Assembly (NCBI RefSeq): GCF_025345565.1 | Contig: NZ_CP054475.1 | Location: 3,451,129 to 3,515,128, forward strand | Direction of reading: 5' to 3' | Length of the DNA: 64,000 nt | Source: Thalassolituus hydrocarboniclasticus | GTDB lineage: Bacteria; Pseudomonadota; Gammaproteobacteria; Pseudomonadales; Oceanobacteraceae | Shown: piece by piece, positions 23,933-50,234 of the stretch | Position numbering within the stretch: the first letter of the stretch is position 1 | How the letters are laid out: each line of letters begins with the position of its first letter | Position numbers and translations under genes: made by a program | Notes under the pieces: generated by a model | The model's input: only the letters and a program-made list of their open reading frames with translations | What the model was told of the DNA's origin: nothing | Database searches by the model: none

Positions 23933-23955
23933 ATTACTTTATATTCTGCTTTCAT

Positions 23956-24336
23956 CTGGCTCCCACGCTCTGCGTGGTAGCCCTTGCTGGTACAGTTGCA
24001 TTCCCACGCAGAGCGTAGGAACGAGAAAATATTCTGCTTCCGCACCTACCACTCTGAAACCGCCACTCAAAACCTGCCCGGATATTCTGATCAGAATGAT
24101 TCTTATCCCGCGCAGATAATTAAAAAGAATCATCACCTGGCTCCCACGCTCTGCGTGGTAGCCCTTGCTGGCACAGTTGCATTCCTACGCAGAGCGTAGG
24201 AACGAGAAAAAAGCAGCATCGCGGTGATGGTTTTCTGCGCCTCTGAGGCCGCCGCAGAACCCGCCACTCAAAACCTGCCCGGATATTCTGATCAGAATGA
24301 TTCTTATCCCGCGCGGATAATTAAAAAGAATCATTA
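23956..24336. repeat. Duplicated unit: palindromic repeat plus Fur-box-like spacer
   Basis: Two tandem copies of a roughly 180-190 bp unit fill most of the 537-bp gap between the RND operons. Each has a palindromic dispersed element (23956-24026 and 24138-24208, containing CCCACGCTCTGCGTGG and CACGCAGAGCGT). Each then has a near-identical 75-bp segment (24060-24134 and 24261-24335) with the symmetrical core GATCAGAATGATTCTTATC. That core shares 13 of 19 positions with the Fur-box consensus by my count. The same palindromic element recurs near 35.6 and 50.1 kb. Confidence 0.85.
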
Positions 24337-35613: not shown

Positions 35614-35808
35614 CTCGCTCCCACGCTCTGCGTGGTAGTGCCCGCTGCTTTGCTGGCTCTGGAAACGACTCGCTCCCACGCTCTGCGTGGTAGTGCCTGC
35701 TGCTTTGCTGGTTCTGGAAACGACTCGCTCCCACGCTCTGCGTAGTAGTGCCTGCTGCTTTGCTGGTTCTGAAAACGACTCGCTCCCACGCTCTGCGTGG
35801 TAGTGTGC
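35614..35808. repeat. 55-bp tandem repeat, about 3.5 copies
   Basis: Units begin at 35614, 35669, 35724 and 35779; the last is cut short. Each starts CTCGCTCCCACGCTCTGCGT and carries a GCTGCTTTGCTGG spacer. The core CCACGCTCTGCGTGG is palindromic and is the same as the dispersed elements near 24.0 and 50.1 kb. There are no distinct spacers as in a CRISPR. Confidence 0.93.
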
Positions 35809-35829: not shown

Positions 35830-36420
35830 TTGTAGCCAATGCGGGGCAAGCCCCTGCGCCCCATGCAAGGAGAAGTATCTCCTTCCGATCCTCTCTTGCG
35901 GCTGTCCGGTGCTGTTCAGCCAACTGCAGCGATTATGCGGCACGCAAAACAATTCGCCCCGGATCGACTATATAAAACATCTATCCAGATGCATCGCTCC
36001 GGGGCAGGGTTTTGCTCTGAAGGCCGCAGAATCACTTGGTTGACTGGCGCCGCACAAATGCCGCGTTTATTCAGACGCAACGCGGCTTTTCAAAACAAAC
36101 AAAAGCAAGAACTAAAAAGCGGCTTCGCGTCATGGTTTTTATGCGCCTGCAGGACGCCGGTGTGGATAATTCTGCGCCGGTAAGTCCCGGCATGGATGCC
36201 GGGCGAGCGAATAGGGCCATGGATGGCCCATTATTCGCGTTACCGAGACCGCAGGATTATTCAGATCGGGTAAAGTCCTGCACAGCGCGAAGCGGGCCGA
36301 TTGTGTGCTCCTGCACAATCTGCATTTCCGCCATCCATCGCGGTCAGGAGTAAGCGCCCGACCGGCGTGAGGGGCAAGCCCCCTCAAAGAGGTCATGGGG
36401 CCGGTCGGCAGCTCAAAAAG
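35830..36420. repeat. Composite hairpin-rich dispersed repeat, block 2
   Basis: Non-coding. Bases about 35840-36060 (arm R) match the reverse complement of about 45000-45235, sharing for instance GCAGGGTTTTGCTCTGAAGG. Bases about 36140-36265 (arm Q, inverted) match block 1. Nested hairpins are obvious: CCCGGCATGGATGCCGGG and GGGCCATGGATGGCCC near 36186-36232. The block ends near a further inverted repeat, CCGACCGGC with GGCCGGTCGG (about 36359-36411). Confidence 0.8.
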
Positions 36421-37075
36421 CCAGACCGCGCAGCGGCTACTCTGCAGCAAAAATAAGACCACGACAGTGAACAACTGTCGCCCTTTGCCACTTGTAACCA
36501 TTTTTATCAATTATTGAACCCATCCCCAAATTTCAGTACTCTTCAGACCAGCAGGGAAGCCGTATCCGCACGATATAACAACATCAGAACTCAGGCCGTC
36601 GGGTCTGTTTATCTGACTCAGCACCGATACCCTCCCTGCCCGAAATCCGACTGTTTTATCCACGCAATTCCTGCCCCGCGCTTATAAGGATGGGCGGCAG
36701 CGTGTCTGGATCAGCAATCAGTGGTTTTTTTGTGGGTAATGGCAAAACGTTGAATGTAAAGAAGTACTGATATACATACAGTATATTTCCGGATTTTAAC
36801 GAAATTTAGCACGCTTTAGATTCGTGCTTGCTCGTTTTGCCGGAGGCCAGTAACTTAAACGCGAAGTTAATCAATAACTTACAACGTTAGTTGACAAGTT
36901 TATGTGCGCTGGAAATTAGAGTTAACAGGCGTGCGCGTTTTTCTGGAAGGGATATTTAAGTTATGGAAGATTTTTCAGGCGGGTCAATGTGTTACGTAGG
37001 AATACTCGAAAGAGTCTCCCCGAGTTAATGCGCACGCATACTAATAATCTGTTACAAGGCATCAGATAATTCATC
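36421..37075. other. AT-rich leader region before the cassette cluster
   Basis: About 650 bases with no credible gene. Composition shifts to AT-rich after about 36720. A hairpin-like AAGTTA / TAACTT and the word CGTTAGTTGAC occur near 36860-36895. A possible degenerate recombination site spans 36922-37055. No integrase gene and no clear attI are present. Confidence 0.5.
36922..37055. other. Possible degenerate attC/attI-like site ahead of cassette 1
   Basis: Outer boxes TAACAG (36923-36928) and CTGTTA (37049-37054) are complementary. Just inside lie GCGTGCGC (36929-36936) and GCGCACGC (37030-37037). The spacing is asymmetric: 0 bases on the left and 11 on the right, which is not normal for an attC. 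It may be a decayed site. Confidence 0.3.
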
Positions 37076-37531
37076 ATGAGACGAGAAGCTGTAGTAGAAG
37101 AAATTGATTTAAATCCTCTCGGTGAGATACGCATGGGATGTGATGCTTATGGTGTGGTTATAAAAACCAATTTTGGCTGCTTTGATATTTTCAAAGACAT
37201 CCCTGTTCTAATCGGACATACCGACCATTCAAAGTGCATAACCCAATCTGAGTGTAAGCGTTATCTTTTAGTAAAAGGTAGTTTTGGCACTTACATCCTA
37301 GATATAAAAGAGCAATCTATAAGCATTTACAAAACAATCATCAGGGGAAAAAACAACGAATGGAGTGAGGAGCAAGCCATTTTTGGTAAAGATAAAACCC
37401 ATATAAAAGGCTTTTCTCAAACCTATTATTTACAGTTTCCTTTCGTAAGGCAGGCTCAGTTCAATGAAGTCTTGTATAAGTTTGAGCGCTTGCGCAAACA
37501 GCAAATTGAGGCCGCAGTAAATGCCATGTAA
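37076..37531 (+). CDS. Cassette gene 1: hypothetical protein, 151 aa
   Basis: A soluble protein of unknown function with no signal or membrane segment, rich in Lys and Ile. Its codon use is much more AT-rich than that of flanking chromosomal genes. Its stop codon (TAA at 37529) is the first part of attC site 1, the usual layout of an integron cassette. The predicted fold appears mixed alpha/beta with a basic helical C-terminus (YKFERLRKQQIEAA). Confidence 0.7.
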   Translation: MRREAVVEEIDLNPLGEIRMGCDAYGVVIKTNFGCFDIFKDIPVLIGHTDHSKCITQSECKRYLLVKGSFGTYILDIKEQSISIYKTIIRGKNNEWSEEQAIFGKDKTHIKGFSQTYYLQFPFVRQAQFNEVLYKFERLRKQQIEAAVNAM

Positions 37532-37602
37532 CAAGTCAATCAACTACGCGCCTTGCAGGCGCCGGACGCAGCAAAGCTGCGCCGGTTATTGAAGCGTTAA
37601 CA
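37526..37602. other. attC recombination site 1 (integron cassette)
   Basis: Outer boxes TAAC (37529-37532) and GCGTTAAC (37594-37601) are complementary. Reading inward, TCAATCAAC on the left pairs with the complement of GTTATTGA on the right, leaving one extra C, the extrahelical base typical of attC. The middle holds GCGCC/GGCGC and CGCAGC/CTGCG hairpins. It starts in the stop codon of cassette gene 1. Confidence 0.85.
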
Positions 37603-37618
37603 CTCAAAAGGAAGCTAT

Positions 37619-37933
37619 ATGAAGTATGTGAAGATTGAGCTTACACAAGGAAATATCAATAACGACCACCTTTACTTGTCATCCGTTATTGAGTTCTTTC
37701 CAAAAAGCTCTATCGGTGGCTCTAACATAGAATCTCAAGCAGAGACCCTTCTCGAAGTACATAGTGGTATTGAGAAGCCTGTTCTCACTGACATTGCCGG
37801 TGATAAAAAGATATTCCGCAAGCGGTCATGGGTTGGCGAGTTCTTTAAGGTACACGAGCTCAAAGCAGGTGATTACGTGGTAATCGAGCATACAGATAGT
37901 AATCGATATCATGTTTATCCAGCTCGAACATAA
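37619..37933 (+). CDS. Cassette gene 2: small conserved protein, DNA-binding-barrel-like
   Basis: A 104-residue protein with AAGGAAG ahead of the ATG. The C-terminal pattern RKRSWVGEFFKVHELKAGD followed by VVIEHTDSNRYHVYP recalls the B3/EcoRII-N DNA-binding pseudobarrel found in restriction-linked and stand-alone small proteins. The N-terminus (YVKIELTQGNINNDHLYL) is conserved in similar short proteins I have seen. Function is unknown; nucleic-acid binding is inference. It lies between attC sites 1 and 2. Confidence 0.7.
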   Translation: MKYVKIELTQGNINNDHLYLSSVIEFFPKSSIGGSNIESQAETLLEVHSGIEKPVLTDIAGDKKIFRKRSWVGEFFKVHELKAGDYVVIEHTDSNRYHVYPART

Positions 37934-37937
37934 TTCA

Positions 37938-37986
37938 GTGTTAACAAGCAAAGGCAGCATCACAAGCCGCTGATTGCGGCGTTACT
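37938..37986. other. attC recombination site 2 (short)
   Basis: TTAACAAGCAA on the left and the complement of GCGGCGTTAC on the right give matched TAAC/GTTA boxes, with a GCAA-type inner box on both sides and a small GCCGC/GCGGC hairpin. The site is only about 50 bases long and sits between the stop of cassette gene 2 and the start of gene 3. Confidence 0.6.
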
Positions 37987-37999
37987 TGCATCAAATAGC

Positions 38000-38419
38000 A
38001 TGATTTACATTGAAGACAGCAGTTTCGATAACCAGCTTAAATTACTGGCTTACCTCTCCAGTAATACAGAACTCTATCTAGTCGCTTGGTTGTATCCGGA
38101 ATCGAATTTGAAGAAGCTTCTCCACTTAGACTTGATTCGCTCCGATTTGAAACCGGTGACTACTTACGGAGATGGATTTCAGCCTAGGCATTCAGTGCCA
38201 ATGCATTGCACTACTGAAATGGTGGCGAGACTATCCTCTCTGCGTGATGTCATCGAAAAGAATTGTGATAGTTTGGCTCTTTATCGACAGAATGAATCTA
38301 GCTGGGATTTTTGTACGATAGGACACGAAGGGATGTCATTGATCGCCGATGATATGTTACTGGATGATGTAAGAAAAGCTGGCTTTCAAGCTTCATTACA
38401 GGCACCGTCGTGGTGGTAG
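38000..38419 (+). CDS. Cassette gene 3: hypothetical protein, 139 aa
   Basis: A soluble protein of unknown family with no signal peptide. It has several Trp residues and an acidic C-terminal part (GHEGMSLIADDMLLDDVRKA), and ends PSWW. No good ribosome-binding site is present, which is common for cassette genes. Lower GC than the chromosomal flank. attC site 3 follows within four bases of the stop. Confidence 0.65.
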   Translation: MIYIEDSSFDNQLKLLAYLSSNTELYLVAWLYPESNLKKLLHLDLIRSDLKPVTTYGDGFQPRHSVPMHCTTEMVARLSSLRDVIEKNCDSLALYRQNESSWDFCTIGHEGMSLIADDMLLDDVRKAGFQASLQAPSWW

Positions 38420-38422
38420 CAG

Positions 38423-38500
38423 GTAACAAGCGGCCGTTGAGGCCACTGAAAAGCGTGGCGGGAAGCGCAAAAAACGCGCGTCCAAAGGCCGAGCGTTAAT
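38423..38500. other. attC recombination site 3
   Basis: GTAACAAGCGGCC at the left and GGCCGAGCGTTAAT at the right form the paired outer and inner boxes (TAAC/GTTA and CGGCC/GGCCG) with a 3-base mismatched spacer (AAG opposite GCT when reversed). Internal stems are GGCC-rich and GCGC-rich. Length 78 bases. Confidence 0.82.
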
Positions 38501-38517
38501 TGGCTCCAGGTACAAAA

Positions 38518-38976
38518 ATGTCAGATCACTATATTTGCTTTATTCCTGCTGAACCCGACTTTATTCCAGGCGAGGAGTCTCAGGCAGCCGCTGCTGCACT
38601 GATTCAAAAAGCATGGAATCTGAAAAAATCTGAGATCACGCCCGAAACCGATACCCACATTGTATTCAGGGACTGTGGCGAAAACTTTGAGTCTGTCCAT
38701 TGTCCGCACTGCAGTGCTGAAATGGAGATCGGGAATTGGCAGGCCCTTATGGATCAAAACTACTCAGATGAAAATGGGTTCACGATCAGCACAATACAAA
38801 CTCCCTGCTGCGGAAAGTCCACCACGCTGAACGATCTTTGTTATAAGTGGCCTATGGGTTTTAGTCGGTTCGTTCTGCGTACTGTCGACCCCGGATGTGA
38901 GATTTCCGATCACCTGCTTATCGAGCTGGAATCCGCTATAGGCTCCAAATTGCGCGTTATTCATCAGATGTACTGA
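38518..38976 (+). CDS. Hypothetical protein with zinc-ribbon-like cysteines (cassette gene 4 or flank)
   Basis: A 152-residue protein. The motif C-P-H-C followed later by TPCCGKST suggests a four-cysteine zinc site in the middle of the protein. The rest is mixed and shows no known family to me. The ATG at 38518 is better than the TTG at 38500 within attC site 3. No attC could be seen after its stop, so this may be the last cassette, with its site decayed, or flanking DNA. Confidence 0.65.
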   Translation: MSDHYICFIPAEPDFIPGEESQAAAAALIQKAWNLKKSEITPETDTHIVFRDCGENFESVHCPHCSAEMEIGNWQALMDQNYSDENGFTISTIQTPCCGKSTTLNDLCYKWPMGFSRFVLRTVDPGCEISDHLLIELESAIGSKLRVIHQMY

Positions 38977-39036
38977 GTGAATACGAGAGCATCTTCAGAA
39001 TCATGGGCAAGTTAGTTTCCATATGGCATTAAGACA

Positions 39037-39600
39037 ATGAAAAAAACACTTATAAAATTATACATCGTGATCTTTTTATCTTTATTGGCGACGATAACTA
39101 TAGCAGCTGAAAGCTGGCGGGATAATTTACCCATCCGGATGATGTTTGTTCCTCAGAAGGGCATGCATCCAACAATAGAACAATCCAGCCTGATCTTTGT
39201 AAAATCTGGCTTCCTTTTCTCAGCGGAAGATATAAGCCGGGGTAACATTGTGTCATTCCGGAAAAGCGAAAATGATAAAGAATATATCTTTATCTGGCGG
39301 GTTATCGGCTTACCGGGAGACAGGGTTGTTACAGATAAGAATGACGTGATTCTGAACGGAAAATATTTATACCGGGAACCCGATGAGTCTGATTCGTCAG
39401 GTACTGTTTTCAGAGAATTTATCGGAGATATTAACTACAGAATCTCACTGGCTGGCAACGCGGAAAAGCACCCATATCAAGAGATTACAGTTCCCAACGG
39501 TTATCTCTTTGTGCTGGGCGACAACCGCAACGCGGCAAAAGATAGTCGCTATATCGGGCTGATTCCTATTGAATCGGTTATTGGCATTAAGATCTTTTAG
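39037..39600 (+). CDS. Signal peptidase I-like protein lacking catalytic Ser and Lys
   Basis: A 187-residue protein of the S26 family with an N-terminal signal/anchor (residues 4-23). The Box B region reads PQKGMHPTIEQ where active enzymes have a Ser before Met-x-Pro: Gly occupies the nucleophile position. The Box D region reads FIWRVIGLPGDRV where the general-base Lys is expected just before Arg: here it is Trp. Box E (LGDNRNAAKDSRYIGLIP) is intact. The fold is therefore kept but peptidase chemistry should be lost. It may bind signal peptides or act as an inhibitor; that is inference. Confidence 0.8.
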   Translation: MKKTLIKLYIVIFLSLLATITIAAESWRDNLPIRMMFVPQKGMHPTIEQSSLIFVKSGFLFSAEDISRGNIVSFRKSENDKEYIFIWRVIGLPGDRVVTDKNDVILNGKYLYREPDESDSSGTVFREFIGDINYRISLAGNAEKHPYQEITVPNGYLFVLGDNRNAAKDSRYIGLIPIESVIGIKIF

Positions 39601-40355: not shown

Positions 40356-40961
40356 ATGGAACAACAATGGGAAAAGATGACCGCTATTTTTAATGCACGC
40401 GGTGGTTTTAATCTGCTTGAGTTAAACAACGGCGCAACCGCCGAAGAGATCGCCCAGCTTGAACAGCATACCGGGCTTGAATTGCCGCAGGCGTACAGAG
40501 ACTTTCTGTCTGTGCATAATGGCCAGGAGCCTGGGGATGGCCGTGGTTTCTTCTTCGGCATCCGCTTGTTGTCGGTCAAAGAAATTATGCGCCAGTGGGA
40601 TACCTGGGTCGCGCTTGAGAATGACGGCCTGAATGAAGATCTGGCCGATTCTATGGAGTCTTCTCCGGAGGGGGTTATCAAACCCCTCTACCTGAACAGA
40701 AAATGGCTGCCGATTACCCATGACCATGGTGGTAATCATATAGGTATCGATTTTGATCCTGATGTTAAAGGCAAGATGCATCAGATTATTTCATTCGGGC
40801 GTGATGAAGATACCAAGAAACTGAAGGCCGATTCGTTTGAAGAATTTATCGCTAAATTTATCGGCTATCTCGAAAGCGTTAACTGGGAATTAAACGCCGA
40901 ACGCTGGGATATTAAAGACAAAGAATACGACATGCATTTCCATGACTGGAATGCGTTCTGA
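40356..40961 (+). CDS. SMI1/KNR4 (SUKH) family protein
   Basis: A 201-residue SUKH-superfamily protein. The signature GATAEEIAQLEQHTGLELPQ followed by YRDFLSVHNGQE, LLSVKEIMRQW and WLPITHDHGGNHIGIDF is characteristic. In bacteria SUKH proteins frequently act as immunity proteins against nuclease or deaminase toxins, or are orphan immunity genes. No partner toxin is adjacent. It is followed by two small exported proteins and a DUF5071 protein, another family seen in immunity arrays. Confidence 0.88.
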   Translation: MEQQWEKMTAIFNARGGFNLLELNNGATAEEIAQLEQHTGLELPQAYRDFLSVHNGQEPGDGRGFFFGIRLLSVKEIMRQWDTWVALENDGLNEDLADSMESSPEGVIKPLYLNRKWLPITHDHGGNHIGIDFDPDVKGKMHQIISFGRDEDTKKLKADSFEEFIAKFIGYLESVNWELNAERWDIKDKEYDMHFHDWNAF

Positions 40962-50006: not shown

Positions 50007-50041
50007 CAACCATAGCGAACGGGCAAAAACGAGCGCTGAAT

Positions 50042-50211
50042 TCTCATTCCCAAGCTCCGCGTGGGAATGCAGCTCCGTCAGCAAAGGCTACCACGCAGAG
50101 CGTGGGAGCCAGGTGTTCAGGAATATTCACTGATCTTATTCTCGTTCCCAAGCTCCGCGTGGGAATGCAGCTGCGCCAGCAAGGACTACCACGCAGAGCG
50201 TGGGAGCCAGA
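50042..50211. repeat. Two copies of the palindromic dispersed repeat
   Basis: Copies at 50042-50112 and 50141-50211 each hold two palindromes: CATTCCCAAGCTCCGCGTGG side and CCACGCAGAGCGTGG side. These are inverted relative to the copies at 23.96-24.21 kb. They recall REP/BIME-type elements; no RAYT transposase is in the window. Confidence 0.9.
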
Positions 50212-50234
50212 TGCAATGCCATAAAACACAGCAT

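Follow-up and report, generated by a model that had tools for sequence, protein, structure and literature searches.

A solo integron platform with its own attI in Thalassolituus hydrocarboniclasticus, probably loaded in trans by a distant integrase

The window analysed here, a 64,000-nucleotide stretch (3451129-3515128) of the closed, 4,067,951-base genome of Thalassolituus hydrocarboniclasticus, contains at 36920-38500 a short cassette array which is most probably a solo integron platform, one of about 15 in the chromosome, loaded in trans by a single distant integron integrase (IntI), a reading to which a probability of roughly 0.84 can be given. Integron integrases act on an attC through its folded bottom strand, which they recombine with a double-stranded attI. 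In the mechanism proposed here, a distributed integron, the intI locus, under the control of a LexA-type box, would be the source of IntI; the enzyme would act in trans, joining the folded attC bottom strand of a circular cassette to any platform through its double-stranded attI, and cassettes would be gained, replaced and lost at many chromosomal positions. Comparative genomics points to this loading in trans, from the observed attI and attC anatomy, copy numbers, solo loci devoid of intI and a cassette turnover at solo platforms bounded by the two crossover motifs.

A covariance model of attC (R1) was built from the complete integron of the same genome, whose 11 attC sites served as the training set with the window sites left out. 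It recovered three sites on the forward strand of the array: attC1 at 37527-37601 (30.8 bits), attC2 at 37940-37986 (18.1 bits) and attC3, the last attC, at 38422-38500 (17.3 bits); the best R1 score elsewhere in the 64-kb window was 13.4 bits. The stem of the training sites has 95.5% of its cells paired, its covariation score was reached by none of 500 shuffles, and the pairing vanishes after a slide of one column. The initial annotation, made on the letters of the window alone, had described three attC-like sites bounded by TAAC and GTTA boxes. This description stands, since the model trained elsewhere in the genome found all three sites, with matches in the intervals 37526-37602 and 38423-38500 as well as at the middle site, and since the strict pattern TAACAAG-N40..70-GCGTTA has two matches in 64 kb (37529-37599 and 38424-38498) as compared to 0.04 expected from shuffles. 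The extra unpaired base described in the first site is also present, in L'' of attC1 (TCAAT[C]AAC versus GTTATTGA). When the bottom strands were folded as DNA, the fold expected of attC sites was significant for attC1 (z -3.4), moderate for attC3 (z -2.0) and not significant for attC2 (z -0.3). The short attC2, which is positioned between a stop codon and the following start, is consequently graded as a probable rather than a certain attC. The attC1 site is 87% identical over 76 nt to one attC of the complete integron and is closely similar to attC sites in the intI-linked array and at solo platform 1682k. The Rfam scan of the array region gave no match to an attC family.

The three cassette genes, all on the forward strand, are orf1 (37076-37531, 151 aa), orf2 (37619-37933, 104 aa) and orf3 (38000-38419, 139 aa). 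Their stop codons had been said to run into the attC sites, as does that of orf1, whose TAA (37529-37531) lies inside R''; the stops of orf2 and orf3 are found 6 and 2 bases ahead of the sites. The description of the cassette proteins as unknown is borne out: comparison of the orf1-orf4 proteins with Pfam, PHROGs, PADLOC and NCBIfam returned no confident family, orf1 and orf3 being without family match and orf2 matching DNA-binding folds below threshold only. Downstream of attC3, orf4 (38518-38976, forward strand, 152 aa) is 95-96% identical at the orthologous platform G001_C34b and could be either an old terminal cassette or a flanking gene. A signal peptidase I-like gene (39037-39600; TIGR02227, 101 bits) lies between orf4 and a VTT-domain gene, and this interval differs at G001_C34b.

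The array begins at an attI of its own. Over 302 nt, the segment 36754-37054 shares 89% identity with the leader that separates intI from its array in the complete integron. It consists of a remnant of the intI promoter and leader (36754-36919, forward strand, 89% identity to the intI-linked leader), from which the intI coding sequence is absent, followed by a type A attI (36920-37054, forward strand) homologous to the intI-linked attI and about 93% (93.5%) identical to it over the last 92 bases. All attI copies diverge beyond the crossover motif CTGTTA (37049-37054 in the window), after which each copy has its own sequence. As the homology ends at this crossover motif, 36920-37054 is therefore identified as an attI, and the array as an attI platform without intI. 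In comparison with a complete integron, the window locus has cassettes with folded attC sites, attC2 being weak, preceded by an attI, and lacks intI in cis.

Within the leader, a LexA-like box (36767-36781) has the form CTG-N9-CAG, with one spacer base fewer than its CTG-N10-CAG counterpart on the intI side. The shorter form was also seen, by eye, in several other solo attI copies, which suggests one origin for that subset of solo sites. A scan for the cassette promoter Pc (promoters and terminators) found no consensus sigma-70 match in 36650-37100. The attI also holds a short leader ORF (36963-37028, forward strand, 21 aa, MEDFSGGSMCYVGILERVSPS) alike in position to ORF-11 of attI1. No coding constraint was found in it (variation by codon position 0.583, 0.491 and 0.576), and its interpretation as a conserved peptide was rejected, the variation not being concentrated at third codon positions.

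The sole integron integrase gene of the genome, intI, is located at 1618473-1619411, 1.87 Mb from the window array. Its product passes the TIGR02249 integron-integrase cut-off (381 bits versus 265), this model being used in place of NF011946, which matched the same protein below its own cut-off, and is 93% identical to the T. marinus IMCC1826 counterpart. An attI and 11 well-formed attC sites adjoin the gene. The window had been reported to be free of integrase, and so it is, the sole strong TIGR02249 match of the genome-wide search (C1:1618473-1619411) falling outside 3451129-3515128. The qualifier "integrase-less" fits the locus, where no remnant of the gene was found, but not the genome. 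The classification of the array as a CALIN holds operationally, with at least two clustered attC sites at the three scores given above, no integron integrase nearby and cassettes of unknown function; the label of integrase-less cassette cluster overlooked, however, the attI at which the array begins. Unlike a CALIN, it possesses this attI together with the intI-leader remnant, and it belongs to a multi-copy set served by one genomic integrase gene, the contents of which turn over between species.

The 327-nt intI leader has eight further matches in the same genome. With a 135-nt model of type A attI (R2) and a model of the divergent type B attI found beside intI in sister species (R3), about 15 attI were counted in this chromosome, nine of type A and six of type B, for one intI. 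In nine genomes of the genus, at thresholds above 44 bits (R2) and 42 bits (R3), the counts were 15, 15, 5, 11, 13, 5, 2, 10 and 6, hence about 82 attI versus 9 intI; all these genome-wide counts come from model searches whose first step scored a limited number of candidates and stand for at least these numbers, and they are approximate, most of the genomes being drafts and only this one and G002 single contigs. Both attI types are multi-copy in the genus. Type B attI accompanied by their own intI were seen at G003:C101, G001:C1 and G002:C1, and the present genome carries its six type B sites with no type B intI. We infer a pairing of IntI type with attI type. In G001, G004 and G007 only the other-type IntI, about 71-73% identical, is present, and type A sites in these genomes would for this reason require cross-recognition or an integrase since lost. 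Among other genera of the family, R2 matches reach 11 per genome with mostly 0-2 intI, and of 245 genomes sampled evenly across the order, only 7 match, 6 of them in the same family, which speaks for the specificity of the model. Two family genomes, G011 (closed) and G039, have 7 and 8 attI-like sites respectively with intI absent at E <= 1e-40, apparently platforms without any integrase.

Common flanks, 85-96% identical across species, define eleven groups of orthologous platforms. Solo attI occupy identical chromosomal positions in different species and are followed, up to the last attC, by unrelated cassettes. In the nine groups with a comparable downstream region, no cassette is common, at the DNA level, to the arrays lying between attI and the 3' flank, the one exception to their dissimilarity being a 106-nt stretch near the flank in group P7. 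Group P1 comprises four species in which 2.9 kb of upstream sequence, about 94-96% identical, lead into the same intI-less attI. Its cassettes are entirely different in all four species, and for three of them the point at which the downstream flank (about 90-95%) restarts is the GCGTTA of the last attC. In P2, homology restarts at degenerate GCGTTA-like motifs in three of four species, and at neither P1 nor P2 was intI seen in any sampled genome. As the intI-less state of P1 is common to its species and the cassettes are not, exchange therefore occurred there without intI in cis.

The window locus and G001_C34b form group P3. The upstream gene region is common to both, the cassettes between attI and the end of attC3 differ, and homology restarts a few nucleotides past the GTTA of attC3, after which both share orf4. 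Because the two species retain different amounts of sequence upstream of attI, P3 does not date the intI-less state; cassette turnover subsequent to the intI-less state is accordingly found at P1 (four species, four arrays) and undecided at P3. With an interval from attI to the last attC that varies among species at orthologous sites, a degraded leftover is not the best reading of the window array.

Other explanations of this turnover were considered. Whole arrays, some of them with intI, could have been exchanged between strains by homologous recombination in the flanks, which are identical enough across species for such recombination; the occurrence of intI at P10 in G005 and not in G008, and at P11 in G003 and not in G001, would agree with it. 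The restarts of homology, however, are not placed at random but coincide with attC R' boxes or lie near them, and the absence of intI from P1 and P2 in all sampled genomes also speaks against such a swap, which is thus considered improbable. CALINs are usually read as degraded integrons, and each locus might accordingly be the relic of a complete integron which exchanged its cassettes in cis and lost intI afterwards. The same distribution of intI at P10 and P11 is in favour of a relic, as are the intI-promoter remnant of the window with its 26-nt match to sequence 3' of the intI stop and the seven attI-like sites of the closed G011 genome, intI-less at E <= 1e-40. On the other hand, the single intI-less left side of P1 with wholly different cassettes in four species indicates that exchange outlasted intI, searches by blastn and by tblastn at E up to 10 found all 34 solo type A loci of the genus devoid of intI remnants, and loss of the whole gene everywhere beside a conserved attI core is not a likely outcome of simple decay, leaving the relic explanation with little probability. 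An ordinary CALIN arising from off-target cassette insertion at an attG-type site can practically be dismissed, for although insertion outside attI has been described (cited in passages of PMC12444791 and PMC12901181), the insertion point here, unlike a minimal attG, comprises an attI core of 135 nt plus about 165 nt of intI leader.

Some observations count against loading of the platforms in trans by the distant IntI. No cassette common to two platforms of one genome, which would have demonstrated transfer directly, was found; a search for shared cassettes yielded just two matches, orf4 with its counterpart in the orthologous platform and a pair, 32% identical, from two different arrays. In addition, the model detected no attC at the solo copies 3883k and 1270k.

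Concerning the origin of the solo platforms, 26-28 nt around 36692-36719 resemble the sequence that directly follows the intI stop codon of the complete integron (26-nt match of 88%, E = 0.003; 93% at platform 531k), a resemblance that a clean deletion of intI would explain. The same 26-nt motif lies in a dispersed repeat block, present at 36476-36710 on the forward strand ahead of the window attI, whose kin precede several solo attI of both types and occur also without attI; the motif might just as well form the left portion of a mobile unit. Over the 92-base region, identity to the intI-linked attI is 93.5% for the window and 92.4% for 531k, compared to 77 and 79% to their positional orthologues, which hints at attI exchange between platforms inside one genome. 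The tree of 37 attI cores is poorly resolved, with the P3 and P4 orthologues not clustering together, and is too weak to prove such exchange. It is tentatively conceivable that solo attI constitute a propagating unit, made of a repeat leader and an attI without intI, which would have been copied to many positions and kept similar to the resident integrase's own attI by intragenomic recombination, so that the whole chromosome would act as a single distributed integron, with about 15 docks at most.

The Thalassolituus platforms are similar to the sedentary chromosomal integrons of Vibrio and Xanthomonas in their chromosomal location, in their attI and cassettes with related attC sites and in the SOS-type box at intI, but differ from them by the many dispersed attI per integrase gene in place of one intI-side array. 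CALINs are nearly as frequent as complete integrons in genome surveys. If many of them were trans-loaded attI platforms, the integron would be a genome-wide system rather than one intI-side array, and different docks could set new genes in different chromosomal surroundings.

The standard tool has a blind spot in this respect, attI outside class 1 being unsearched: IntegronFinder, according to PMC9024848, detects attI only for class 1. The Xanthomonas CALINs, according to passages of PMC12444791, likewise reside at conserved chromosomal loci, seven in number, and are interpreted as ancestral integron activity, CALINs being described there as mobilisable in trans when a functional IntI is present; the same passages mention no attI at these loci, in which the Xanthomonas CALINs differ. 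Both attG and delta-attI sites, as presented in passages of PMC12901181, are like solo attI recombination sites apart from the intI-side attI; attG sites differ in not being attI, and delta-attI in being attI fragments inside cassettes of class 1 and class 2 mobile integrons rather than chromosomal platforms. A literature search, covering few subscription papers, found no mention of Thalassolituus with integrons and nothing relevant on multiple or orphan attI sites, and dispersed attI platforms with one integrase are provisionally regarded as new.

Several further elements were noted around the array. Directly upstream of the platform, a TwoAYGGAY RNA motif (36150-36276; RF01731, 50.1 bits, gathering 43) is situated in a patchwork of intergenic repeats present at about 30 places in the genome. 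At 35614-35805, 82-nt repeats with 55-nt spacing (CTCGCTCCCACGCTCTGCGTGGTAGTGCC...) are located near the start of a pseudouridine synthase gene on the minus strand, and the regions 23944-24211 and 50041-50213 have repeats in common with a cluster near 1.637 Mb (75-99% identity). A gene for an SMI1/KNR4 (SUKH-1) protein, a family whose members are often immunity proteins, lies near the array at 40356-40961.
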